A DNA stretch of 64,000 bases from positions 3,853,812-3,917,811 of the forward strand of contig NZ_KE386491.1 of assembly GCF_000427405.1 (NCBI RefSeq). The letters run 5' to 3'. Below, one piece after another: positions 8,159 through 59,400 of this stretch. Both the position numbers and the translations under genes were made by a program. How positions within the stretch are numbered: the stretch's first letter is position 1; the number at the start of each line of letters is the position of its first letter. The notes beneath the pieces are model-generated. The model did no database searches. It saw only the letters and a list, made by a program, of their open reading frames with translations, and was not told where the DNA came from. The DNA is from Flectobacillus major DSM 103. GTDB lineage: Bacteria; Bacteroidota; Bacteroidia; Cytophagales; Spirosomataceae.

Positions 8159-11100
8159 ATGCGAAAAATAAATATGCTGTGGGCTGCTTTTTTAAGCCTA
8201 TGTACTATCTCTTTACACGCTCAATCTCAAGAAGTCTATTTTACTTCTTTTCCAACACTTAGTCCCGATGCACAAACGCTAGTATATTGTTTTGAAGGTG
8301 ACCTCTGGAAAGCCGATTTATCAACCAATACTTCTACTCGGCTTACGGCCATGCGAGGAATAGAAACTCGCCCCAAAATTTCGCCTGATGGCAAATGGGT
8401 CGCTTTTTCGAGTACACAATACGGCAACCCCGATGTATACATTATGCCTCTGGCTGGAGGTGCTATTCGACAATTAACATTTCATGATAGCTTTGACTAC
8501 GTAGAATCGTGGTCGTGGAACTCACAAACGGTTTATTTTGCTTCTGGAGCTCAGAACGACGGAACAGCCTACACCATTGGTATTAATGGCGGAACTCCCA
8601 AAAGAACTTTCCAACACTTTTTTAACCGTATCCACAATGTTGTTGAACACCCCAACACAGGCGAATTGTTTTTTAATAATACTTGGGAAAGCGATAACCA
8701 AGCCTATCGAAAAGGATATAAAGGAGCTTTTAATCCAGACATTCAGTCATATAACCTCAAAACTCAAACTTACAAACGCTACACCGATTATTTGGGGAAA
8801 GACCTTTGGCCTACTATCGACCGCTCTGGGAAATTATATTTCTCGTCGGACGAAGGTAATGGCAATTATAACTTATACACTTTAGATAACGGCAAAAAGG
8901 TAGCATTGACCCAATTCGGCGAGGCTATCAAACGCCCACAAGTAAGTGCCAATGGCCAAAAGGTGGTTTTTGAAAAAGACTATCAATTATTCTTGTACGA
9001 TGTAGCGTCAAAAACTAGCCAAAAGCTGACCCTAAATGCTATTCGTAATTATGTTTTGCCTAAAGATCAAGACTATAAAGTAGCAGGAAATATCAATGCT
9101 TTTGATGTAGCAGGCGATGGTAAAAAAATCGCATTTTCTTCGCGTGGAGCTTTATTTGTGTCAGATATAGAAGGGAAATATATAGCCCAGTTGCCTACCG
9201 ATAGCAAAGGACGAGCCATAGAAGTAAAATGGCTTTCAGATAACAAAACGTTGCTATTTAGCCAAACTAACGAAAATGGGTATTTAAACCTATTTACAGT
9301 AGCCGCCGATGGCAAGACAACTCCCAAACAAATTACAACCGACCAGCAAAATAACCGCAATATTTCATTCAACAAAGACAAATCACAGGCGGTTTATTTG
9401 AGTGGAAAAAATGAAGTGAGGCTACTCGACCTCAAATCGCTGGTATCTACAACCGTTGTCAAAGAAGAGCTTTGGGCTTTGTATAATCCTATGCCGTATT
9501 TTTCGCCCAATAGCGAATATATCATGTTTACAGCCTATCGTAATTTTGAACAAGATATTTTTCTATTTCATTTGGCCGATAAAAAACTCATCAATCTAAC
9601 CAATACTGGTATTACCGAAACTAACCCCTATTGGTCGCCCGATGGCAAATATATTTACTTTGAGTCGGACAGAACTAAGCCTAATTATCCTTTTGGCTCA
9701 AACAATAGCCGTATTTATCGTGTGCCTTTAGTAAAAATAGACGCTCCGTACAAGTCCGATAAGTTTAGTGATTTGTTTAAGCCCGAAGAGAAAAAAGAGG
9801 AAAAGAAAGACGATAAAAAAGTAGTGGCAAAAACAGATAATAAGAAAAAAGAGGAGGCGAAACCTGTTGTACCTCCAGTTAAAAAAATAGAACCTATCGT
9901 GATTGACTTTGAAGGTTTGATGCAACGATTTGAGCAAATTAGTCCTAATATAGGTGCGGCCGAACAGCCTCTTGTGTATCAAAAAGACGATAAAACATAT
10001 ATTCTGTTTTTGTCGAATCACGAAAGTGGAAAAAGCAAGCTATGGAAAACTACTATAGAGCCTTTTGCCAAAAATAAAACCGATAAAATAGAAGGAATTG
10101 ACGTAAATAATATCGACATAGTGGTAGCCGACAACAAATATTATGGCTTGGTAGATGGCAATATTTACAAACTCAATCTTGATGGCAATAAGCTTGATAA
10201 AATAGATATCAATTTTACCTTCAGAAAAAATTTAGCGAGCGAATTCAAACAAATGTTTTATGAAGCATGGGCTGGTGTTGAAGAAAACTTTTATAACGAA
10301 ACCTTTAATGGGGTAGATTGGGTAAAAATGCGTCAAAAATATCAGCAGTTTCTACCACAAGTAAATACCCGTGCCGATTTACGCATTTTATTGACCGATA
10401 TGCTCGGCGAGCTAAATGCCTCTCATACTGGCTTTTCGACCAATGGCGATGAAGACGATGCTTATTTCAAAACCGTTACATTGAATACTGGTATTATGTT
10501 TGACAACGACAACCCTTATCAAGTGAAATATGTGGTTAAAAACTCGGTAGCAGACAAAGCAGGAAAGGATATTCAGCCAGGCGACAAGCTGATTAAAGTT
10601 AACGACGATACTATTTCTACAAGTCAAAACCGTGATTTCTATTTCCAAAAACCATCTTTAGACGATGAAATAGCCTTGACCTTCGATAGAAATGGTAAGG
10701 TTTTTACTACCAAAATTCACCCACAAGGTTCGTGGGCTTTTGTACGAAATTTATACAACGAATGGATAGACCAAAACCAACAATATGTAGATACCAAAGC
10801 CAATAAACGCATTGCATACGTACACATGAGCGATATGGGGCGTGAAGAACTAGAAAAATTCTTGATAGATATGACTTCGGAAGCCTATAATCGAGAAGGC
10901 TTGATTTTTGATATTCGTAATAACCGAGGGGGCAATGTACATGACTTAGTATTAAATTTTTTAGCTCAAAAGCCATACCTAAAGTGGAAATATCGTGAAG
11001 GCCAATATACCATACAACCCAATTTTAGTCCAGCAGCAAAGCCTATTGTATTATTAATCAACGAGCAGTCGCTGAGCGATGCCGAAATGACTGCACAAGG

Positions 11101-11359
11101 CTTTAAAGAACTTAAATTAGGTAAGATTATCGGAACAGAAACCTACCGTTGGATTATCTTTACTTCTGGAAAAGGATTGGTAGACGGTTCTTTTTATCGT
11201 TTGCCTTCGTGGGGATGTTATACCCTAGACGGCAAAGATTTGGAAAAAGAAGGCGTAAGTCCAGATATTAATATTCAGCAAACTTTTGTGGATAAACTCA
11301 ACAACAAAGACCCTCAACTGGATAAAGCAATAGAAGAGATTTTGAAGGATTTGAAGTAA
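8159..11359 (+). CDS. Tricorn-like S41 protease with PD40 propeller and PDZ domain
   Basis: This 1066-residue protein follows the Tricorn protease plan. After a signal peptide (to about residue 21, HAQS), PD40/WD40-like repeats (for example SPDGKWVAFSS) form propellers over roughly residues 25-530. A Lys/Glu-rich low-complexity linker follows at about 540-575. Next come a C1-like helical region, a PDZ domain near 780-860 and an S41 catalytic domain. The nucleophile is expected in the LSDAE motif (S973, D974). A signal peptide suggests a periplasmic location, unlike the cytosolic archaeal enzyme. Such enzymes cut oligopeptides, so it may process peptides released by the upstream secreted M4 protease. 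It is preceded by a strong terminator, so it has its own promoter. Confidence 0.9.
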   Translation: MRKINMLWAAFLSLCTISLHAQSQEVYFTSFPTLSPDAQTLVYCFEGDLWKADLSTNTSTRLTAMRGIETRPKISPDGKWVAFSSTQYGNPDVYIMPLAGGAIRQLTFHDSFDYVESWSWNSQTVYFASGAQNDGTAYTIGINGGTPKRTFQHFFNRIHNVVEHPNTGELFFNNTWESDNQAYRKGYKGAFNPDIQSYNLKTQTYKRYTDYLGKDLWPTIDRSGKLYFSSDEGNGNYNLYTLDNGKKVALTQFGEAIKRPQVSANGQKVVFEKDYQLFLYDVASKTSQKLTLNAIRNYVLPKDQDYKVAGNINAFDVAGDGKKIAFSSRGALFVSDIEGKYIAQLPTDSKGRAIEVKWLSDNKTLLFSQTNENGYLNLFTVAADGKTTPKQITTDQQNNRNISFNKDKSQAVYLSGKNEVRLLDLKSLVSTTVVKEELWALYNPMPYFSPNSEYIMFTAYRNFEQDIFLFHLADKKLINLTNTGITETNPYWSPDGKYIYFESDRTKPNYPFGSNNSRIYRVPLVKIDAPYKSDKFSDLFKPEEKKEEKKDDKKVVAKTDNKKKEEAKPVVPPVKKIEPIVIDFEGLMQRFEQISPNIGAAEQPLVYQKDDKTYILFLSNHESGKSKLWKTTIEPFAKNKTDKIEGIDVNNIDIVVADNKYYGLVDGNIYKLNLDGNKLDKIDINFTFRKNLASEFKQMFYEAWAGVEENFYNETFNGVDWVKMRQKYQQFLPQVNTRADLRILLTDMLGELNASHTGFSTNGDEDDAYFKTVTLNTGIMFDNDNPYQVKYVVKNSVADKAGKDIQPGDKLIKVNDDTISTSQNRDFYFQKPSLDDEIALTFDRNGKVFTTKIHPQGSWAFVRNLYNEWIDQNQQYVDTKANKRIAYVHMSDMGREELEKFLIDMTSEAYNREGLIFDIRNNRGGNVHDLVLNFLAQKPYLKWKYREGQYTIQPNFSPAAKPIVLLINEQSLSDAEMTAQGFKELKLGKIIGTETYRWIIFTSGKGLVDGSFYRLPSWGCYTLDGKDLEKEGVSPDINIQQTFVDKLNNKDPQLDKAIEEILKDLK

Positions 11360-11419
11360 TAGCAGTTGATATGCTATTATTACCTAAATGGCCTTGCCTT
11401 ATGGGCAGTAAATCGAAAC

Positions 11420-11653
11420 AAGGGGCATCCCAAATTTAGGGGATGATGATTATTTTTAAGTATGATTTTCACCAGCTTTAGCCGCAATACTTTGCGGCTA
11501 AAGCTGTGTCATTTAACATACCAAAGGCGTTCGGAAAACTAATTCCGAACGCCTTTGGTATGAATAGCCCCTAATTTTCTATCATTTGAGCAATTGATCA
11601 GCCTCATCAAAATTCACTTGATGACCGTATAAAGCTCAACAAACACAAAGAGA
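11420..11653 (+). repeat. Dispersed hairpin repeat, copy A (MITE-like, truncated right end)
   Basis: About 235 bp between the convergent 3' ends of the Tricorn-like and amidohydrolase genes. It is homologous over its length to the reverse complement of 20606-20844. It contains a 14-bp stem (11474-11487 with 11492-11505), a perfect 19-bp stem (11517-11535 with 11544-11562) and a 29-nt block (11570-11598) identical in both copies. The left end resembles the terminal repeat of copy B. The matching right end is missing, so this copy is truncated or diverged. No ORF of note is present. Confidence 0.85.
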
Positions 11654-11672
11654 TGCTCTCTTTTAATATTAC

Positions 11673-13004
11673 CTAAAATACAATTTTTCCTTCATGGCAT
11701 AACGAAGTAACTGGCGAAACTCTGGCTACAGCTTCGGCAGAACAAGTAGCATCTAAAAACACGACATTGGCTTTATCGCCTATTTTGGGCCATTGTTGAT
11801 TGCCTTTGTCGTCGAGAGGCAGGATGTCGCCTGTAGCAATTTTAAGACTTCTTGACAATAAAAATTCCGTATTATAGGCATATAATTGAGCCATCAGATT
11901 GGCTTTCTGCAAAACACTACCCGTACCATAAGTATTCCAGTGGTCTATAATACTATCGTTGCCTGTAACTACCTTTACATTGTATTTGTACAAAGTAGGA
12001 ATTGGCATGATTAACGAACCTATAGGAATCGTCGAAGCAATGCCCATCTGTGCTGCACCCAGCTTTTCTGCTATTTCTTCTTGTTTTGGTTTCTCTAATT
12101 TTCCCAACACAAAACAATGGCTTACAAAAGTTTTTCCTTTCAGTACAGGGTTTTCATTAACCTTTTCGATTAAATATTCCACCGTTTTCAAACCCGATTC
12201 TCCAGCTTCATGCAAGTGAATATCAATCCCTTTGTTGTTGTCTAAAGCAAGTTGTACCGTAAAATCAATCGTTTTTTCGATAGCCCCATCAATCGTGAAG
12301 GGGTCAACACCACCAATAAAATCAATATCCATTTGTGCCGCATCTTTCAAGTACGGAACCGAATCGGTATAAAATACGCCATGTTGTGGAAAAGCAACTA
12401 ACTCGGCACCAAAGCTATTTTTCTTGTTTTCAAGTGCCTTTTGTAAGTTTTTGAGCGATTGTACTTTTGAAGTAGGCTCAATATTGACATGACTCCGAGC
12501 AAAACCTGTTCCTTTTGATTGTAGCAATTCTATAAGCTTTTCGGCTTTATAAGTAGAGGTTTTTAAAAGCTCAGGCAGGATTTTTTGTTCTAAAGCAATC
12601 ATTCCTTTTACGCCATTGGTTCTTTTGCGAGTAGCCTGCCATTTTTCTCCATAAAAAGTTTTATCTAAATGGATGTGCATATCCCGAAACGAAGGAAGCA
12701 TCAGATACCCTTTGGCATCAATCGCTTTGGCATTGGGTTGGTTAGGAGCAATATTCGTGATTTTGCCATTGTCAATTTCAATCAAAAATAAGGCTGTTTT
12801 GGTAGCAATTACTTCGCCTTCTTCGTATTCAAAACCTGTTTCCAAACGAACATTTTTAAAACTCAGTTTCTCTTTTAACAATGATATATCATTTTCTTCT
12901 TGAAAATTTTGTGAAGATAAACCTTGTGAAACCACTAAACCTGCCATAGCAAAGGTAGAGTTTTTGAGGAAGTCTTTACGAGAGATATTATCCTGAATAT
13001 TCAT
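11673..13004 (-). CDS. Exported amidohydrolase, cytosine-deaminase-like
   Basis: I place the start at the ATG at 13004 (443 residues), because the longer frame begins with TTG and the resulting N-terminus reads ISRKDFLKNSTFAMAG, a Tat-like signal with RK replacing the RR pair. The metal-dependent hydrolase fold is shown by DMHIHLD (H110, H112), DIHLHEAGE, SHCFVLG and GNDSIIDHW, the order seen in cytosine deaminase and related deaminases. Cytosine deaminases are normally cytosolic, so a Tat-type signal suggests a periplasmic paralogue with another substrate, perhaps an N-heterocycle or a cyclic amide. It faces apbE across a divergent intergenic region. The family is secure and the substrate is not. 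Confidence 0.85.
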   Translation of the reverse strand: MNIQDNISRKDFLKNSTFAMAGLVVSQGLSSQNFQEENDISLLKEKLSFKNVRLETGFEYEEGEVIATKTALFLIEIDNGKITNIAPNQPNAKAIDAKGYLMLPSFRDMHIHLDKTFYGEKWQATRKRTNGVKGMIALEQKILPELLKTSTYKAEKLIELLQSKGTGFARSHVNIEPTSKVQSLKNLQKALENKKNSFGAELVAFPQHGVFYTDSVPYLKDAAQMDIDFIGGVDPFTIDGAIEKTIDFTVQLALDNNKGIDIHLHEAGESGLKTVEYLIEKVNENPVLKGKTFVSHCFVLGKLEKPKQEEIAEKLGAAQMGIASTIPIGSLIMPIPTLYKYNVKVVTGNDSIIDHWNTYGTGSVLQKANLMAQLYAYNTEFLLSRSLKIATGDILPLDDKGNQQWPKIGDKANVVFLDATCSAEAVARVSPVTSLCHEGKIVF

Positions 13005-13244
13005 AGAATCGTCTGTTGTTTGAGTTTGTACAAAAGTACCAATCAAACAACAACAATTGTAATGATTAATAGGCAAAAGCAATTAGAGTTATGGTATTTT
13101 ACAAAATTCTAAATCTCAAAAAGTGCAGATATGTACTTTTATTGAATATTGATGAGTAAATTTGACCATTAATTTAAAATCAGTCTAAATAACTAAGTCT
13201 TTATATTAGTATTATTCAACATAAGGCTTATTTTCTTCTTAGTA

Positions 13245-18817: not shown

Positions 18818-20599
18818 ATGACACAGATTTTTCAAAAACGAAAAGAGGCTTTTGAACAACAAGCTGATATTTTTCAAAAAAAATATAACCAATGGGCTGT
18901 AGCAAGGGCATTCTTTTTTATAATATATGGTTTGCTTTGCTTTTATGTTTTCCAAAATAGTAACGAGTGGATTTTCTTGGGAGTACTCGTTGTAGGTATC
19001 GTTGTATTTCTTTGGATGGTAACCAAACACCTAAACATTAAGTCGCAAAGAGATAAATTCAGGCTACTGGCGACGCTCAACAATGATGAAATTTTGCGTT
19101 TACAGAAAATATTTACTCGCCCCGAAACAGGCGAAGCATTTCTAAATAGTAATCATTTTTATGCTACAGACCTAGATATTTTTGGCAAGCATTCGATTTT
19201 TCAATTACTCAACCGAACGCATACTTTTGCAGGCTCTAAACTACTGGCTTCTTGGCTACAGTTTCCAGCGCCATATACTACAATTATGGGTCGGCAAGAG
19301 GCCTCGGCAGAATTAAAAGAACTTATCGATTGGCGACAAGATTTTGAGGCTTCGGCAATGATGATAGAAGAGGTAGAAAAGCCCACCGATAAGCTTTTGG
19401 AATGGGCTGAGGCTTCTCCTAGCAAAACCCTCGACAAACCCCTTTTCCGCTACGCTCGCTTTCTGCCTTATCTGAGTATTCCTTTTGCTATTGCTTGTTT
19501 AATCGGTGTTGTTCCTATCCAATTTTTGTTGTTGGTTTTTTTGATTCATGGTTGGATTTTAAAACAAATTTTTGACGAGCTAACCATTTACTTAGAACAT
19601 ACCAATCGGGTAACTGGGGCTTTAAAAGCCTATGCTGTTTTATGTAATAGTATAGCTCAACAGCTGTTTTGTTCGCCAAGTTTACAAGCTTTACAAAATC
19701 AAGTTTCAGAAGCAAGCACCTCGATTCAGCATCTGGTAAAACTCTTAGAAAGGGTAGCTAATCGAAATAATCCTATTTTTATGATATTGGTTGGCACGGT
19801 TTCGCTTTGGGATTTGCGGTATTTTTATCGCTTAGAACAGTGGCGTATACAATACCAACAACAACTTCCTTTGTGGCTCGATACTGTCAGTGAGTTTGAA
19901 GCCCTCAATAGCCTAGCAGGACATACATTTGCCAATCCAACGGCTGTTTTCCCAACAATTCACCAAGAAGATTTTTGCCTAAAGGCTATTCAATTGGGAC
20001 ATCCAATGATTCGTTCTGAAAAAAGAGTTTGTAATTCTATTATCCTTGAGGGAATTGGTAAAACGATCATTATTACGGGGTCTAATATGTCGGGAAAAAG
20101 TACTTTTCAGCGAACGGTAGGAGTCAATATGGTTTTGGCATTGATGGGAGCGGTGGTATGTGCCGAGGCTTTTGAATGCTCGATGGTACAGGTTTTTACC
20201 AGTATGCGAACGCAAGATTCGTTAGAGGAAGATACCTCTTCGTTTTATGCCGAACTCAAGCGACTTAAACAATTGATCGATTGGGTGAATCAGCCCAACC
20301 AATCATTGCCTACGCTCTATTTCTTAGATGAGATTTTGAAGGGTACTAATTCAAAAGACCGCCACGATGGAGCAAAAGCCTTGATGGTTCAATTACACAA
20401 AACCCCATCGTCGGGTTTTATTTCAACACACGATGTAGAGTTGGGTGATGATTTTACAGAACAGGGTTTTGTAAGTAATTATAGTTTTTCGTCGGAAGTA
20501 ATTAATGGTAAGCTAATATTTGATTATACGCTACGTGAAGGTGTGTGTAAAAGCTTTAATGCTAGCCAATTGATGAAACAAATTGGAATAGATATGTAG
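18818..20599 (+). CDS. Membrane-anchored MutS-like ATPase
   Basis: This 593-residue protein carries the MutS core and ATPase domains but no mismatch-binding domain I. Walker A is GSNMSGKST (421-429), Walker B is LYFLDEIL, and GTNSKDR and FISTHDVELG complete the MutS signature. Two hydrophobic helices near residues 28-70 and two more near 205-245 suggest a membrane anchor. The lever segment between about 80 and 400 resembles MutS domain III. Canonical MutS is about 860 residues, so this is a separate short paralogue common in Bacteroidota. Its role in DNA repair is unproven, and a membrane location argues against ordinary mismatch repair. Confidence 0.85.
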   Translation: MTQIFQKRKEAFEQQADIFQKKYNQWAVARAFFFIIYGLLCFYVFQNSNEWIFLGVLVVGIVVFLWMVTKHLNIKSQRDKFRLLATLNNDEILRLQKIFTRPETGEAFLNSNHFYATDLDIFGKHSIFQLLNRTHTFAGSKLLASWLQFPAPYTTIMGRQEASAELKELIDWRQDFEASAMMIEEVEKPTDKLLEWAEASPSKTLDKPLFRYARFLPYLSIPFAIACLIGVVPIQFLLLVFLIHGWILKQIFDELTIYLEHTNRVTGALKAYAVLCNSIAQQLFCSPSLQALQNQVSEASTSIQHLVKLLERVANRNNPIFMILVGTVSLWDLRYFYRLEQWRIQYQQQLPLWLDTVSEFEALNSLAGHTFANPTAVFPTIHQEDFCLKAIQLGHPMIRSEKRVCNSIILEGIGKTIIITGSNMSGKSTFQRTVGVNMVLALMGAVVCAEAFECSMVQVFTSMRTQDSLEEDTSSFYAELKRLKQLIDWVNQPNQSLPTLYFLDEILKGTNSKDRHDGAKALMVQLHKTPSSGFISTHDVELGDDFTEQGFVSNYSFSSEVINGKLIFDYTLREGVCKSFNASQLMKQIGIDM

Positions 20600-20605
20600 A
20601 AATAT

Positions 20606-20844
20606 GAGTCATCCAAATTTTGGATAACCACCTCTTTGTGTTTGTTGAGATTCATAAGGTAGTTAAGTGAGCTTTGAAGAGGCTTATCAATTGCTCAAAT
20701 GATAGAAAATTAGGAGCTATTCTTGCAAAAGGCGTTCGAAAGCTAATTTCAAACGCCTTTTACATGTTAAATGATACATCTTTAGCCGCAAAGTATTGCG
20801 TCTTTACTGGTGAAAATCACCATTCACTAAATTTGGGATGACTC
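20606..20844 (-). repeat. Dispersed hairpin repeat, copy B (MITE-like, with terminal inverted repeats)
   Basis: About 239 bp, reverse-complementary to 11420-11653. Its ends form imperfect inverted repeats: GAGTCATCCAAATTTTGG at 20606-20623 and, read inward from the other end, GAGTCATCCCAAATTTAG (20827-20844). The main hairpin (20722-20740 with 20748-20766) differs from copy A at several paired positions, yet pairing is kept. The 29-nt block at 20686-20714 is identical to copy A. It lies between the stop of the MutS-like gene and the stop of a convergent gene. No target-site duplication is evident. Confidence 0.85.
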
Positions 20845-20863
20845 TTGTTAATTTGAAACTTTA

Positions 20864-21529
20864 TTACTCTTTTTTCACTTTTAAATCTCTAAAATATCCT
20901 TCTGTTCCTACATCTACGAAAAGTCCTAATGCTCCAGCAGTGTTATTGCCCAATGATTCGTTGACGATTAAAGAGGGGTGTTCGTTATCGTTTAGAAATA
21001 ATTTGGATTGTTTGCCTTTAACTACGATTTTGATTTTTATCCATTCGTTCAAACCCATGTCGGCGTAAGATTCATATCTTTCGGGCTTTTCTTTTCTAAG
21101 AATATCAAACTTAAAATCAGGAAAAGAAAAATACTGAATCGAATGGTTACGGCGTACTTGGTCGTCGGCTCGGCCGTTGGTCGGACGAATGTAAATACAA
21201 TCAAATTTTGAATTATCGGCATTGATATGATACGCCAAACCGATAAAGCCGCGGTCGGAAGGAGCAGCCGTTTTCAACAATCTACTTAATACTTTCACTT
21301 CAATTATTCCCTCTTGAAAATCAATATTTTTGATACGTACAAATGTCGCTTCATCTACTTTCTTCATGGTCGAATCTTTCACAACTTTTAGTACTTTCAT
21401 TCCATTGAGTTTTTCAAAAGACATTGATACTTGATTGGCTATCAGATTATTAGGCTCTAAGCTGACTGTTTGAGCCAATAGGTTTTGATATAAAAAAAGG
21501 GTAAAGAGTAATATCTGCAAATTTTTCAT
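20864..21529 (-). CDS. Secreted DUF1080-like / LamG-like protein
   Basis: A 221-residue protein with a signal peptide (about 1-19, NLLAQ). The mature part reads like a concanavalin-type jelly roll: FVRIKNIDFQEGIIEVKVLS, GFIGLAYHI, YIRPTNGRADDQVRRNHS, WIKIKIVVKGKQSKLFLND, and GALGLFVDVGTEGYFRDLKV. This order is characteristic of DUF1080 (3-keto-disaccharide hydrolase-like) and related glycan-binding sheets. It may bind or cleave a saccharide in the periplasm. It is followed by repeat copy B, and a gene-remnant scar lies upstream. Confidence 0.7.
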   Translation of the reverse strand: MKNLQILLFTLFLYQNLLAQTVSLEPNNLIANQVSMSFEKLNGMKVLKVVKDSTMKKVDEATFVRIKNIDFQEGIIEVKVLSRLLKTAAPSDRGFIGLAYHINADNSKFDCIYIRPTNGRADDQVRRNHSIQYFSFPDFKFDILRKEKPERYESYADMGLNEWIKIKIVVKGKQSKLFLNDNEHPSLIVNESLGNNTAGALGLFVDVGTEGYFRDLKVKKE

Positions 21530-30022: not shown

Positions 30023-30531
30023 TAAATCAAGAAAAACTCAATCAAATAACAACCTTTGTGTTTGATATTGATGGCGTAATGACAGACGGCTCGGTACATG
30101 TACTCGAAACGGGCGAGCATTATCGTACATTTTATATTCGTGATGGTTATGCCCTAGAAAGAGCCGTAAAAGCAGGTTATAGAATTTGTGTTATTACTGG
30201 CGGTAAGCATGATGGTGTAAAAAAACGCTTAGAAAACCTTAAAATTCACGATGTATTTATGGGTTCGGGAGGAAAAAGTAAACTCGAAATCTATGAAGGT
30301 TGGTTGGCTAATTCGGGCGTGAAGGAAGAAGAAATCTTGTATATGGGCGACGATATTCCCGACTATCAGGTCATGGAGCGTCCACATCTTTTTGCCACTT
30401 GTCCAGCCGATGCCTGCGATGAAATTTTGGCTATTTCACAATATGTATCACCATTCAACGGAGGCCGTGGAGCTGTTAGAGACATCATTGAGCAAGTAAT
30501 GCGTGCCAAAAATGAATGGTTGGTATTTTAA
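30019..30531 (+). CDS. kdsC: 3-deoxy-D-manno-octulosonate 8-phosphate phosphatase (KdsC-type HAD phosphatase)
   Basis: A 170-residue C0-type HAD phosphatase. Motif I is FDIDGVMTDG with the two catalytic aspartates, motif II is the threonine of CVITGGK, and motif IV is YMGDDIPDY. Length and the missing cap domain match tetrameric KdsC. The enzyme releases phosphate from Kdo-8-phosphate in lipopolysaccharide core synthesis. Its start overlaps the end of the DUF2520 gene (ATGA), and a strong terminator follows. Confidence 0.9.
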   Translation: MINQEKLNQITTFVFDIDGVMTDGSVHVLETGEHYRTFYIRDGYALERAVKAGYRICVITGGKHDGVKKRLENLKIHDVFMGSGGKSKLEIYEGWLANSGVKEEEILYMGDDIPDYQVMERPHLFATCPADACDEILAISQYVSPFNGGRGAVRDIIEQVMRAKNEWLVF

Positions 30532-30551
30532 TTACCATATTTTTACGACAT

Positions 30552-30589
30552 AAAAAATCCTGTATTGGATACCCAACACAGGATTTTTT
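30552..30589 (+). terminator. Rho-independent terminator after kdsC
   Basis: AAAAAATCCTGT pairs with ACAGGATTTTTT, with a partly paired inner loop. Sitting between convergent genes, it can serve kdsC and also pirin on the minus strand. Confidence 0.85.
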
Positions 30590-30602
30590 GAATACAATAC
30601 TA

Positions 30603-31328
30603 TTAAAGCATAGGAACTTCCATCAATAGTAGCTCGACACCATCGGTAGTTTTGAAGTCTACTTGGTCGATATTTTCAAGGCCAAGGCCATCTCTTGTTG
30701 CTAATTTTTCGCCAGTGGTTTCTACCTCTCCCTTTACCACAAAAACATATAAACCATTGCCTGGACGTTTAATTTGATAAGAAAACTCTTGTCCTGGATC
30801 AAAATTTCCCATACTAAAATAGGCGTATTGATGTATCCAAAGAGCATCGTCAGATTGGTCGTCGGATGGACTCACTAACAATTGAAAACGATTTTGACGG
30901 CCTGCTAAGTCAAACGATTTTTGGTCGTAACGAGGTTTTACATTTTCCGCATTCGGAAATAACCAAATTTGGAACAAAGTGAGAGCTTGGTCTCGTAAGT
31001 GATTAAACTCTGAGTGGTATACACCCGTTCCAGCACTCATTACTTGTACCTCGCCAACAGTGATAACACCTTCGTTACCAAAGTTGTCTCGGTGAGCAAC
31101 CACGCCCGAAGTAGGAATCGTAATGATTTCCATATTGTCGTGTGGGTGCATTCCAAAGCCTTTTCCTCCAGCAATATAATCATCATTCAGTACTCGCAAA
31201 GCTCCAAAATGAACCCTTGAAGGGTCATAATAACCAGCGAAAGAGAATGTTAAATTAGTTTTCAACCAGCCGTGGTCGGCTTTTCCTCTTGTGTTGGCAA
31301 GATGGAGTGTTTTCTTAACAGTATTCAT
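30603..31328 (-). CDS. Pirin family protein
   Basis: The start is the ATG at 31328 (241 residues), preceded at 8 nt by AAAGGAG; a longer frame from 31358 would pre-empt that site. The N-terminal cupin has DDYIAGGKGFGMHPHDNMEI with metal-binding His residues and a following glutamate (GTGVYHSEFNH). A second, degenerate cupin completes the bicupin fold. Bacterial pirins bind iron, and some oxidise quercetin or sense redox state. It lies 37 nt behind yceI, suggesting a two-gene operon downstream of an AraC regulator. Confidence 0.9.
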   Translation of the reverse strand: MNTVKKTLHLANTRGKADHGWLKTNLTFSFAGYYDPSRVHFGALRVLNDDYIAGGKGFGMHPHDNMEIITIPTSGVVAHRDNFGNEGVITVGEVQVMSAGTGVYHSEFNHLRDQALTLFQIWLFPNAENVKPRYDQKSFDLAGRQNRFQLLVSPSDDQSDDALWIHQYAYFSMGNFDPGQEFSYQIKRPGNGLYVFVVKGEVETTGEKLATRDGLGLENIDQVDFKTTDGVELLLMEVPML

Positions 31329-44131: not shown

Positions 44132-45403
44132 ATGCTACAAATACAACAAATTAAAGAAAACAAGGAAGCCACAATTGCGGGCTTGTTGAAAAAGCATTTT
44201 AAAAATGCTGAAGAAGCTGTAGAAAAACTTATTGTTTTGGACGACAAGCGTCGTGAAACCCAAAATGAATTGGATTCTACCTTGGCTCAGTCAAATGCCC
44301 TTGCCAAAGAAATTGGAGGGTTGATGAAAGCAGGTAAAAAAGAAGAGGCTGAAGCTGCTAAAACCGAAACTTCTAGCCTTAAAGCTCGTTCTAAAGAACT
44401 TGATGAAGCCCTAAAGGCTATCGAAACTGAACTGTACGAAGTGCTAGTAACTTTGCCAAATTTACCACATGCAAGTGTTCCTGAAGGAAAAGTAGCTGAA
44501 GATAACGAAGTAGTACTCCAAAATGGTACTGTACCCGTTTTGGATGAAAATGCCTTGCCTCACTGGGACTTGATCAAAAAATACGATATTATTGATTTTG
44601 AATTAGGTAACAAAATTACGGGGGCAGGTTTTCCAGTTTATAAGGGTAAAGGTGCAAGAATTCAACGTGCCTTAATCAATTTCTTTTTAGACGAAGCTAT
44701 TGCAGCGGGCTATGTTGAGGTACAGCCTCCTATCTTGATAAACAAAGATTCTGGTTTTGGTACAGGTCAGCTGCCCGACAAAGACGGCCAAATGTACCAT
44801 GCTACCGAAGATGACCTCTATTTGATTCCTACAGCCGAAGTACCTATTACCAATATGTACCGTGATGTGATTTTGCAGGAAACAGATTTGCCTATCAAAA
44901 ATGCAGGTTATACACCATGTTTCCGTCGTGAAGCGGGCTCTTGGGGGGCTCATGTTCGTGGCCTGAATCGTTTGCACCAATTTGATAAGATTGAAATTGT
45001 GCGTATCGAAAAACCCGAAAATTCGTATGCTGCCCTCGAAGAAATGTCTTTGCACGTTCAAGGACTTTTACAAAAACTTGAATTGCCTTATCGTGTTTTG
45101 CGTTTGTGTGGCGGCGATATGAGTTTTACTTCTGCCCTTACGTACGATATGGAAGTATTTTCAACGGCTCAAAAGCGTTGGTTAGAAGTAAGTTCAGTGT
45201 CAAACTTTGAAACTTACCAAGCCAACCGCTTGAAGTTACGAATGAAAACCGAAGGAAAATCTCAGCTATTACATACCCTCAATGGTTCTGCTTTGGCTTT
45301 GCCACGTATTTTGGCTGCTATTCTCGAAAATAACCAAACACCTGAAGGTATTCGTATTCCAAAGGTATTAGTACCATACTGTGGTTTTGACCTAATTGCT
45401 TAG
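44132..45403 (+). CDS. serS: Serine--tRNA ligase
   Basis: A 423-residue class II seryl-tRNA synthetase. The N-terminal coiled-coil arm (about 30-110, ETQNELDSTLAQSNALAKEI) grips the tRNA long arm. Motif 2 is PCFRREAGSWG with the conserved arginines, and motif 3 is NGSALALPRILAAILENNQ. The TAEVPITNMYRD segment contributes to the serine site. Length is typical. It charges tRNA-Ser and also tRNA-Sec where present. Confidence 0.96.
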   Translation: MLQIQQIKENKEATIAGLLKKHFKNAEEAVEKLIVLDDKRRETQNELDSTLAQSNALAKEIGGLMKAGKKEEAEAAKTETSSLKARSKELDEALKAIETELYEVLVTLPNLPHASVPEGKVAEDNEVVLQNGTVPVLDENALPHWDLIKKYDIIDFELGNKITGAGFPVYKGKGARIQRALINFFLDEAIAAGYVEVQPPILINKDSGFGTGQLPDKDGQMYHATEDDLYLIPTAEVPITNMYRDVILQETDLPIKNAGYTPCFRREAGSWGAHVRGLNRLHQFDKIEIVRIEKPENSYAALEEMSLHVQGLLQKLELPYRVLRLCGGDMSFTSALTYDMEVFSTAQKRWLEVSSVSNFETYQANRLKLRMKTEGKSQLLHTLNGSALALPRILAAILENNQTPEGIRIPKVLVPYCGFDLIA

Positions 45404-45416
45404 AAAAAAAGCCCAA

Positions 45417-45458
45417 ACTACCAAGGCCTAGTTGTATTTGCTAGGCTTTGGTAATAGT
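45417..45458. terminator. Bidirectional terminator between serS and hpt
   Basis: ACTACCAAGGCCTAG pairs with CTAGGCTTTGGTAATAGT around a 9-nt loop. It stands between convergent stops, 13 nt past serS. Confidence 0.75.
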
Positions 45459-45469
45459 ACTTACAGGTA

Positions 45470-46012
45470 TTATTTTTCATGTAAAACATACAGGTCTGGA
45501 AGGTTTCGCCCTAAGCCATCATAGTCTAAGCCGTACCCCAAAACAAATTTATTTTCAAGCTCAAACCCAATATATCGAATATCAATAGGGGTTTTAAGAG
45601 CCTCTGGTTTTTGAAACAAAGACGCAATCTCCAACGACTTTGGGTTTTTTGCCAAAAGTTGTTTTTTAATTTCAGCCATAGTAAGGCCAGTATCGACAAT
45701 ATCTTCTAATACAATTACATCACGCCCAGTAATATCTTCTTTTAAGCCCAAAACTTCGGTTATTTTACCTGAAGAAGTAGTAGAGTGATACGAAGAAACC
45801 CTTAAAAAAGTAATTTCACATTCTATCGAAACCGATTTCATGAGCTCGGCAGCAAACAAAAATGAACCATTCAAGATTGCTAAAAAAATAGGACATTTGC
45901 CTGAATAATCTTTACTAATGCTCAGCGCCAATTCTTTAATGCGATTTTCAATGATAGCTTGCTCAATAAAAATCTCGAATTGTTTGTCGTGAAGTTGGAT
46001 GATTGGGTTCAT
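45470..46012 (-). CDS. hpt: Hypoxanthine phosphoribosyltransferase
   Basis: A 180-residue type I phosphoribosyltransferase. The PRPP-binding loop reads VIVLEDIVDTGLTM, and the flexible loop appears as FLRVSSYHSTTSSGKITE. The C-terminal IGFELENKFVLGYGLDYDGLGRNLPDLYVL closes the purine site. It salvages hypoxanthine or guanine to IMP or GMP. It is monocistronic, convergent with serS, with a shared terminator. Confidence 0.94.
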   Translation of the reverse strand: MNPIIQLHDKQFEIFIEQAIIENRIKELALSISKDYSGKCPIFLAILNGSFLFAAELMKSVSIECEITFLRVSSYHSTTSSGKITEVLGLKEDITGRDVIVLEDIVDTGLTMAEIKKQLLAKNPKSLEIASLFQKPEALKTPIDIRYIGFELENKFVLGYGLDYDGLGRNLPDLYVLHEK

Positions 46013-56433: not shown

Positions 56434-59400
56434 TTATTTCAAAACCCCAACTTTACCAGCATTTCGTGCAAAAATCATCATTCTTGATTGATTACCTGTT
56501 TTTACGACAATCAGATCCCGAACATCGCCATTGAGCATAAAGCCGGAAGTTTGATAAGGAATAGGTCTAAACAACCCTTTGCCATTACCCAAAAGAACGG
56601 CTCCCATTGAGGCATCGTTGCGGCCTAACTGTACACGCCAAGGATAAAAATTACCTCCAAGGAGTATATCTTTTTTGCCATCCTTATCAAAATCTTCAAT
56701 TACGATACTTGATACCAGCGATATTTGTGCTGCTAATGGCAAGGCTTTGGCTACAAATTGTCCATTACCTGTATTTTCAAAATAGGTAGAGTTTAATGTG
56801 TTTATTTTGAGGGTTTTAGCATCTTTGAGTTGTTCTGGTGAAAGAAGTTCGTTTAATGTAGCCTCAGCGTAATCTTTATATTTCAAAAACTTTTTCCTAA
56901 CAGAAGGAAATTGATTGGCCAGTTCGTCGAGAGAAGCTAGCGGATAACTTTTTCCCTGAATATAATAGCAAATTAAGGGTTCGATAGTGCCATTCTGGTC
57001 AAAATCGCCATAACAAAGACTAATCGGCTCTTTTTCGGAAGCTCGGAACTGCGTATTTTGTCCCAAATTTCCTGCAATGATGTCCAAGTCGCCATCGTTG
57101 TCCATATCTTCGACAACTACTTTTGCCCAAAAACCATTGGTATTATTCATGCCATATTTTGTGGTAGCATTCATCAACTGCCCTCGGTGGTTTTCGTAAA
57201 TAGTAATAGGCATAAATTCGCCTGCAATAACCAAATCTAGCCAACCGTCGTGGTTGAGGTCTACCCAAGCTGCAGTATTTACAATACCTGGTCGGCGTAA
57301 GGTAGTTTCTTTTTGCTCAGAGGCATATTGGAACGTTACTTTTCCATTTTTACTCTCATTTCTCAATAAATAACAAAAATCGGCTTCAGGAAAGCTGTTG
57401 GGCATCGAGCGTCCTCCAATAAAAATATCAATATCGCCATCTTTGTCATAGTCGGCAGTGGCAATACAGCTACCATTGCTAGTTAGGTCGGGCAGAGCAT
57501 CATTGTTTTTTGTAAATACCCCTTGTCCATTATTAATAAATAGGTGGTCTTGATATACTTTGTCGTGAGCCGCAAATTCAGTGCCTCCTCGTACAACAAA
57601 TAGGTCTAAATCGCCATCGTTATCGGCATCGAAAAATGCTACGCCCATATCTTTACTAAGAGTTTGACTAGTCCAAGGCTGTGAGGTTGCCTTTTGAAAT
57701 TGTCCATTGCCTTTCTGGATATACAACTCGCCTGCCTGTACCTGATTTCCTCCCACAAAAATATCTTCTAGGCCATCGCCATTGACATCGCCTTTTGCTA
57801 AAAAAGGCCCTATTTTAGATACCTGATAGGGCAAAAGAGATTGATGCTTAAAGTCGACATAAGGTACTTCTTGATGGATATAAGGTATGTTAGACAGCAA
57901 ACTGAAGTCAGACAATAAAGGCCGTGTTGGCAGAGCCGGAACTGCTAGGAGGTGTTTGGCCGTATTACTATGAACCGTTAATAAAGTGTCAGCTTTGAGG
58001 TTGTATAGTTCGGTTGTTTGGCCATTTACCCAGCGAATTTGCAACGATTTTACAATAGAATCTTGGCCCAAACCAAAATGTAAAGAAGGTTCTACACTAC
58101 TCTGAAAACCATGAGAAGGGTAAAGTTCCTGCATTTGGGATGAATGAGCTGTTTTCAAAATAACTTTTGCTCCCAATGCAAAATGGTTCAGACCAGTGTC
58201 TCTTAGGTTTATCGTCAAATAGTGATTTTTGGCTATTTGCCTGCTTTTATTTTCAAATAGCATAGCAGGAGCATTGCTATTATTCACAATTAGGTCTAAA
58301 TCGCCATCGTTATCTAAATCAGCGTATGCGGCACCAGTACTAATGGAGGGTTCGGAAAGCCCCCATTTTTCGGTAATATTCTGAAAAGCAAGGCCATTGC
58401 TAGTATTTTTATTCAAAAAACAATAGTTGCTTACTTTGGTACTGGACATTTCCTGAATCAGTTTCCAAGTGTTTAGTTTTTGCCCTAAAGCACGAGCTTT
58501 GTCAGATTCTTCCTGATAAGTGTATTTCAGAAAATCCATATTGGTGAAATCACGGAGGTAGCCATTGGTAATATAAAGGTCTTTATAGCCATCGTTATCC
58601 AAATCGCAAGCCAGCGGACTCCAGCTCCAGTCGGTGTTGGAGATACCCGCCAACTGCCCAATTTCACTAAACTGAGGAATACCTTCGGTATTATTGCCAA
58701 CATTCAGTTGTAACATATTACGCATATTTTGGTGATGAAAGCCACTATCAACCAATAATTGGTAATTGTCGTATTCGTCGGGGCCTTTCAGCAATTTCTG
58801 TCTGCGATTGTCTTCAGGAAGCATATCTAACGAAACAATATCGGCTTGTTGATCATTGTTAAAATCAACAATATCTGACCCCATCGAAAACTTAGAGATA
58901 TGTCCGATACTTTTTTTGAGTATTTCGGCAAAATGTCCATTTTTGAGATTTAGGTATAAAAAATCTTGCTCGTTATAATCGTTTGTTACGTAAAGGTCTG
59001 GCCAATCGTCGTTATTGATGTCGCCAATAGCCACACTCAACCCAAAGTTCAAACCACTGCCATTGATACCCGCTTCGTCGCTAATATCGTTAAAATATCC
59101 ATTGTCGTTTCGGTAGAGCCTATTGCCAAACTGAGGGTGTCGTGTTTTGCGGAGCCGTTCGGTATTGAAAAAAGCATTATAAAACATTTCGGCATGATTG
59201 ACCATAAACATATCGAGGTCGCCATCTTTGTCCATATCGAAAAAAGCTACCTGAGTTGTAAAAGTGCCTACGGCATCGAGCCCATATTGGGCAGCACTTT
59301 CTACAAAAACTGGGACACCATTTTTGTTGCCAGTATTGATATATAATTCATTGCTGCGTTCTTCTTTTGTTCCAGAGCCAGAATAACAAACATAAATATC

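Follow-up and report, generated by a model that had tools for sequence, protein, structure and literature searches.

How does a short noncoding element come to lie between two converging genes, its ends intact, with no duplicated target bases on either side? The question is raised by copy B, one of two copies (A and B) of a repeat found in a 64,000-nt stretch of the Flectobacillus major DSM 103 genome (RefSeq assembly GCF_000427405.1, contig NZ_KE386491.1, positions 3,853,812 to 3,917,811 of the forward strand), which stretch in its full length is hereafter called the window. An original prediction from the letters alone had taken copy B for a miniature inverted-repeat transposable element (MITE) without an apparent target duplication. 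We propose, with a probability of roughly 0.8, that both copies belong to a family of Tn5-like transposons in which insertion replaces a terminator hairpin and whose MITEs often bear a hairpin of their own; the minimal statement, supported by the comparison of alleles between relatives, is that the occupied alleles carry an element in place of a hairpin. Individual loci and genomes are denoted by our working numbers (L and G, respectively).

The family is bounded by a 22-bp terminal inverted repeat of the consensus AAACATGAGTCATCCCRAATTT. Both of the predicted ends are present in copy B—GAGTCATCCAAATTTTGG starts at 20606 on the plus strand and GAGTCATCCCAAATTTAG reads inward from 20844 on the minus strand—and a search of the window with CATGAGTCATCCCRAATTT (≤3 mismatches) agreed, with three matches (11419+, 20603+, and 20829−) against 0.03 expected in shuffles. 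Although the repeats placed at 20606 and 20844 are real, the element turned out to be slightly longer, extending from 20600 to 20850; and in 50 aligned ends of copies fetched by their similarity to copy B, conservation sets in sharply at an outer AAA and runs inward from there. Copy A, thought to retain the left end, does keep one end; but the copy is inverted, so that the end kept corresponds to the right end of B, while its second end has been replaced by the 3′ end of the neighboring minus-strand gene. Copy B contains no open reading frame (ORF) of 80 or more aa, and a scan of the window against Rfam at the gathering threshold gave no match. The F. major genome holds 205 ends (≤3 mismatches) versus none for the reversed control pattern, so that these ends are not a product of chance; three congeners hold 148, 147, and 108, with all the reversed controls at 0. 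With copy B as the query, all 40 scored places (of 124 candidates) in its own genome matched, mostly over 180–280 bp; and among 39 genomes searched, the matches outside that genome were restricted to three of the four other congeners. The exact 22-bp end, scanned through a collection with one genome per species (84,980 species), was present in at least 120 stretches, in Bacteroidota and Chloroflexota (phyla assigned by name), and among the matches listed short elements with 22-bp ends were found in both phyla.

The absence of a target duplication holds for copy B and extends to the whole family: among 95 end pairs—of which one (L053, 1471 bp) is false and another (L065) nested—direct repeats of 2–12 bp at the borders were never above chance, with repeats of 4 bp matching in a single case, against 0.48 expected, and those of 5 bp in none, against 0.20. 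To look for empty alleles, we joined the flanks of occupied sites and then searched the relatives. A total of 55 sites were put to relatives in rounds of 9, 15, 5, 8, and 18, the 15 of the second round being what was left of 31 candidates, most of the others having been set aside because their flanks were themselves repeats. In the first round the matches in relatives exceeded the joined-flank query by 33–40 bp at three sites and fell short of it by 50 bp at a fourth, which prompted the alignments. For 21 sites an alignment with one or more relatives was made (13 + 3 + 4 + L289), and L134 was viewed on one side only; among the sites put to relatives and left unaligned, some had no two-sided match among the matches listed. 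Empty sites, the check that had been suggested for copy B, were in fact found at sites of the family, none of them being that of copy A or B.

At 10 of the 13 Flectobacillus sites at least one relative was free of element remnants, and in all 10 such a relative has a palindrome at the site. Both borders were resolved (≤2 nt) at nine sites, five occupied by MITEs (L243, L278, L276, L285, and L297) and four by copies of insertion sequences (IS; L253, L255, L197, and L123), with both borders within 1 nt at seven Flectobacillus sites. The empty allele of all nine holds a palindrome of 21–51 bp, a clear hairpin in eight, and the occupied allele lacks it. Among the MITE sites, the segment lost measures 39 bp at L243; 37 bp at L278, where replacement is confined to the upper hairpin and the lower stem is kept on either side; 37 bp at L276; 51 bp at L285, an imperfect palindrome; and 21 bp at L297, the upper part of a longer hairpin. 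Among the IS sites, 33 bp are lost at L253, 37 bp at L255, and 43 bp at L123 in Spirosoma luteum (left border within 2 nt). The cleanest case lies outside Flectobacillus: at L197 (G021 compared with G055) a 34-bp hairpin has given way to a 1742-bp IS, with 160 + 160 flanking bases identical to those of the empty allele. A Rudanella MITE (L087) agrees, with the loss of 33 bp and weaker flanks. The midpoint of the lost segment coincides with the center of the palindrome, sought over at least 141 nt, within 0.5 nt at eight of the nine sites and within 2 nt at L285. Since the element stands where the empty allele still has the hairpin, the absence of duplications does not look like the result of decay. 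At L197 the three terminal bases on either side are ATA/TGT, matching the empty allele, instead of AAA/TTT; possibly an element takes its outermost three bases from the A and T runs of its target.

The same alignments could be read in the reverse direction, the hairpin of the supposedly empty allele being a scar left after loss of the element, and remnants with and without ends do occur at some sites (L284 and L294). We give this reading very little credence: the hairpins differ, by eye, from one site to another and from the common core of the elements, and a native hairpin is common to two or more relatives at five sites (L278, L276, L250, L246, and L007), for which reason the hairpin is probably the older, ancestral state. 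At two of these sites the native hairpin moreover exhibits compensatory changes, namely L276 (AAAAGCCC/GGGCTTTT versus AAAACCCC/GGGGTTTT) and L250.

Most of the elements lie between convergent genes. According to a simple longest-ORF caller, 33 of 49 elements in the F. major genome and 27 of 44 in others lie between convergent ORFs, compared with 6 of 32 gaps in the window, while only one of the 49 and none of the 44 lie between divergent ones; in 14 of those 33 convergent elements both gaps to the stop codons are ≤25 bp (0 and 13 bp for copy B). A strong stem (≥10) was present within the 60-nt flank of just 2 of 122 elements. Among the window ORFs with room, 8 of 28 have a stem ≥10 within 80 nt of the stop, and both partners of two element-free convergent junctions are among those eight. 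These two junctions (30531–30603 and 45403–45470) have strong native bidirectional hairpins, and are possible targets of future insertions.

The scarcity of stems in the flanks bears on a history in two steps, where an ordinary insertion beside a terminator would be followed by deletion of the redundant hairpin, for example through slippage between A and T runs. The loss of the old hairpin would be tolerated inasmuch as many MITEs bring their own, and the A and T runs at both places would supply the microhomology. Nevertheless, the intermediate of such a history is hardly seen (the 2 elements of 122), duplications are at chance level in the 95 pairs, and at all nine sites, the IS copies and L197 included, the deletion would need to coincide with both borders of the element, so that we regard these two steps as quite unlikely. 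Capture at a break, in turn, would start from a host nuclease such as SbcCD, which cuts palindromes in Escherichia coli: the cut palindrome would offer a double-strand break for the element to be pasted into, and the loss would then reflect processing by the host instead of the transposase's choice of target. For other IS, insertions that lack a duplication and lie at a deletion have been reported, with insertion at a break being proposed (PMC11708052). This route we consider improbable, because the lack of a duplication excess throughout the 95 pairs points to a constant property of the family, and because trimming by nucleases would be expected to leave ragged, asymmetric losses rather than the center offset of 0–0.5 nt seen in eight of nine sites. 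Both histories must explain the symmetry along with the near lack of intermediates.

A number of observations weigh against replacement as we propose it. Except at L197, with its identical flanks, the replacement is read from a comparison between species. At L285 the lost segment is only imperfectly palindromic, and a second relative (G003) aligns poorly and has no such hairpin in register; the relative used for L297 is diverged; L246, L250, and L283 have a hairpin in the empty allele, but one exact border or none; and at L087 the hairpin is centered, but the flanks align only 16 and 22 nt away. At L289 one relative contributes a single flank, with no strong stem evident beside it, and the second carries a remnant. 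For L284, L290, and L294 the relatives offered no empty allele that was clean, and for the Arcicella sites none that was two-sided was found. Two of the four IS copies (L253 and L255) have a broken ORF, and since no more than 8 of 28 window ORFs bear a strong stem, the figure of 2 of 122 stands out only moderately. The symmetric complementarity of the flanks, a test independent of relatives, reached in 121 pairs a z of 1.7 at the expected register and of 2.1 at another; flank-pair duplex energies did beat all 200 permutations over 20 nt. The subset of 14 IS gave no signal. We accordingly abandoned the idea that insertion into palindromes might be a rule readable from the flanks alone, the signal being weak. 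Finally, 10 of 18 clusters of element cores, described below, lack a core stem above all the shuffles (two reaching 2 of 60), and in copy B itself the stem is followed by a run of only four T and the core was not listed by a simple terminator scan.

The prediction had also proposed a search for an IS with the same ends. Such elements exist in Flectobacillus congeners and in Spirosoma, Aureispira, and further genera; the F. major genome yielded none. They measure about 1.45 kb (range 1435–1742 bp), have identical 22-bp ends, and contain one ORF of about 447 aa. The right terminal repeat itself writes the C-terminus of the transposase as QNSG-stop (QTSG or QSSG in some; e.g., L079, 6511–6532, minus strand), so that the end and the protein are locked together. 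The three transposases tested all matched PF01609 (DDE_Tnp_1) above the cut-off, while their matches to the NCBIfam IS4 models all fell below it; residues D129 and D231 and the series Y349-R352-E356-K363 (DDE plus YREK) are invariant in the seven transposases aligned. One transposase was folded, and the best Protein Data Bank matches of the model (mean predicted local distance difference test score of 68.6) were Tn5 transposase, with an E-value of 5e-14; the enzyme has a predicted Tn5-like fold, and we take the IS to be IS4/Tn5-like. A search of the F. major genome with the transposase gave no match, whereas the same query did match in congeners: in G001 at full length with 96% identity, one copy having an internal stop and another being split over two frames; and in G002 in pieces, with 92% over the longest. 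In L079, from Flectobacillus sp. BAB-3569, the ORF is intact. The genomes G001, G002, and G003 correspond to Flectobacillus longus LYT7W, ‘Cellulophaga’ sp. BC115SP, and Flectobacillus sp. BAB-3569; the second (NZ_JAAALB01...) is of the same genus as the two Flectobacillus strains, and its assembly is probably misnamed. A plasmid collection consulted for pairs with and without the element held no near relative of the transposase, and an apparent 1471-bp IS in the F. major genome (3330507/3331956) resolved into two independent short elements that flank two genes. In leaders of the IS (e.g., L079, L123, L194, L141, and L198) we noted by eye a hairpin over the ribosome-binding site before the transposase ATG, formed by ACCTCCT/AGGAGGT in the first three and by different letters in the last two. 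The hairpin looks as though it served to keep read-through RNA from being translated, a property that would suit an element that removes terminators.

These shared ends, together with the empty sites, support the MITE status that had been predicted for copy B. They also bear on the view that the repeats are not mobile at all, being inherited bidirectional terminators or palindromes akin to the repetitive extragenic palindromes (REPs), with the outer repeats as the base of one large hairpin. The location between convergent genes and the hairpin core would suit such a view, REPs being similarly placed between convergent genes and often <20 bp from 3′ ends (PMC3733652). Yet transposase genes in several genera are bounded by the same 22 bp, and empty sites exist; a nonmobile terminator family is ruled out in its strict form, and in any form we judge it extremely improbable.

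With respect to mechanism, the transposase of about 447 aa encoded by the autonomous IS of the congeners would move copies A and B in trans through their 22-bp ends. The enzyme might act on an extruded hairpin, either a cruciform or a hairpin on single-stranded DNA, where the bases of the two arms lie side by side; strand transfer at both would drop the hairpin out and leave no duplication. Such a reaction would make the hairpin vanish symmetrically around its center, the targets being mostly terminator-like and located between convergent genes, and the strong A-stem-loop-stem-T palindrome borne by many of the MITEs would restore bidirectional termination, rendering the swap tolerable. We lean, by a narrow measure, toward considering this a new transposition reaction, in which a Tn5-like DDE transposase has a DNA hairpin as its normal target and the MITEs would serve as interchangeable terminator cassettes, rewriting gene 3′ ends across Bacteroidota and Chloroflexota. 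From a DDE transposon one expects a duplication of a few bases at the target, so that the removal of a structured target would be a different solution to the problem of target choice; if true, parasitic DNA would sit cheaply in dense genomes by landing at gene ends, many MITEs bringing a terminator-like hairpin for the one destroyed. The proposal also makes it possible to test how often intrinsic terminators are extruded as hairpins in vivo, and whether this suffices to provide a substrate; the reaction could possibly be turned into a targeting tool.

Several components of this proposal are already known: MITEs, Tn5-like IS, palindrome-targeting IS, and the placement of REPs at convergent 3′ ends. 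In a literature search that covered mostly the beginnings of abstracts, with most subscription papers outside its scope, we found no report of the replacement of a terminator by a transposon. The IS4 family produces target duplications of about 9–12 bp, and IS10 and IS50 have a leader hairpin over the ribosome-binding site. With the IS4 family and Tn5 (IS50) the present elements share DDE_Tnp_1, the YREK signature, Tn5 as best fold match, one ORF, short terminal inverted repeats, and that leader hairpin; they differ in having no duplication excess, in replacing a hairpin, and in falling below every NCBIfam IS4 cut-off. Correia elements are MITE-like short intergenic repeats, and a target-site duplication is not required of every MITE. 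Like these and the BrickBuilt elements of Porphyromonas gingivalis and MITECca of Cardinium, presented as MITEs (PMC4596501 and PMC9769881), our elements are short, multicopy, and intergenic, with IS-like inverted repeats, but they replace a terminator-like hairpin and often bring one. ISRm22 (of the IS4 family), ISPsy8, and others in REPs insert at the symmetry axis of palindromes (PMC1525189); these IS share that site preference, but split the palindrome and make a direct repeat, whereas in the present family the occupied allele lacks the palindrome, or the upper part of it, and no repeat is made. REPs and REPINs with RAYT tyrosine transposases are likewise palindromes dispersed near 3′ ends and between convergent genes; the present family differs in its defined 22-bp ends and DDE transposase, no RAYT search having been made. 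Group IIC introns, for their part, also target the hairpin of intrinsic terminators, and are retroelements that insert beside the hairpin without removing it; with them the hairpin stays next to the intron, while here it is gone.

Within the MITEs of the F. major genome the central palindrome is the best stem in 29 of 30 copies, with the arms being variable. The core consists of a G+C stem between A and T runs, the pairing of which is kept through compensatory change (e.g., GGCGTTTG/CAAACGCC, GGCGGTCG/CGACCGCC, and CCAAAGG/CCTTTGG), and copy B folds far better than its shuffles (z −5.5). We grouped 80 element cores into 18 clusters and compared one representative of each with 60 shuffles: the core stem was longer than in all 60 in eight, including clusters from Lewinella, Rudanella, Saprospiraceae, and an Anaerolineales element, whose stem sequences are unrelated. 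Since the other 10 clusters have no such stem, a terminator cargo would be common though not universal; the terminator-like core of many MITEs would fit a selection for termination kept after the swap. Left arms resemble the IS leader in 9 of 13 MITEs tested (≤1 of 300 shuffles as good), without a significant match in copy B (26 of 300 as good), and a search for transposase remnants in 13 MITEs found none that was convincing (best E 2.6). The core loop occurs among L001–L030 both as AAAAACTAATTT and as its reverse complement AAATTAGTTTTT, with six exact copies of each, so that in some copies the center of the hairpin appears to be inverted relative to its surroundings.

For the F. major genome the evidence of replacement is partial. 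At L007 the native hairpin is present in four of four relatives, the right border being flush in three and the left blurred by 14–16 nt; at L018 (with G003) and L013 (with G004) the hairpin comparison is only partial, and the relatives at L021 carry related elements. For copies A and B, at neither of which was a strict empty site comparable, the case for replacement is one of family resemblance. The ORF upstream of copy B, which from its sequence we take to be MutS-like, has other downstream neighbors in the relatives, and the empty site is therefore not strictly comparable. In G001, G002, and G003 a short palindrome (GTAAAAT..ATTTTAC) lies downstream of that gene and is missing from the window; as the original site of copy B it is suggestive only. 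The coordinates of both copies and of the ORFs around them are collected in Table 1.

Table 1. Coordinates in the window of copies A and B, their parts, and the ORFs that converge on them.
Feature	Coordinates	Strand	Remarks
Copy B, complete miniature element, 251 bp	20600..20850	+	From end search and copy comparison
Copy B, left terminal inverted repeat	20600..20621	+	3 mismatches to consensus
Copy B, left arm	20622..20726	+	
Copy B, central palindrome AAAAGGCGTTCGAAAGCTAATTTCAAACGCCTTTT, bidirectional terminator-like hairpin	20727..20761	.	From sequence and folding
Copy B, right arm	20762..20828	+	Includes small hairpin CGCAAAGTATTGCG at 20787–20800
Copy B, right terminal inverted repeat	20829..20850	−	2 mismatches to consensus
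Presumed MutS-like ORF, 593 aa, convergent on copy B	18818..20599	+	TAG stop (20597–20599) flush with the element
221-aa ORF, convergent on copy B from the opposite side	20864..21529	−	13 bp off
Copy A	11416..11679 (right limit approximate)	−	Inverted relative to B; no end near 11679
Copy A, surviving terminal inverted repeat	11416..11437	+	3 mismatches
Copy A, central palindrome	11517..11562	.	Compensatory changes relative to B (CATACC..GGTATG; TTCGG..CCGAA)
1066-aa ORF, convergent on copy A	8159..11359	+	
469-aa ORF, convergent on copy A	11673..13082	−	Stop codon inside the last bases of the element-like sequence

Three further observations were made in passing. The nested pair at L065 (10040–10240; G000:C6:3787039-3787239) consists of a 153-bp element of a second type within the remains of another, and adjoins a gene resembling those of resistance-nodulation-division transporters, whose TAA stop comes from the outer element. 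In Flectobacillus relatives (L031–L052 and L394–L396) a second repeat frame, GAGTGAATGAGTGATTATTTTTA ... TAAAATAATCACTCATTCACTC, surrounds terminator hairpins without the CATGAGTC ends, and is possibly another terminator-associated element. Elsewhere in the window, a 40-nt repeat (AACAAATAGGTCTAAATCGCCATCGTTATCG...) is present in five copies at 57418–59242.
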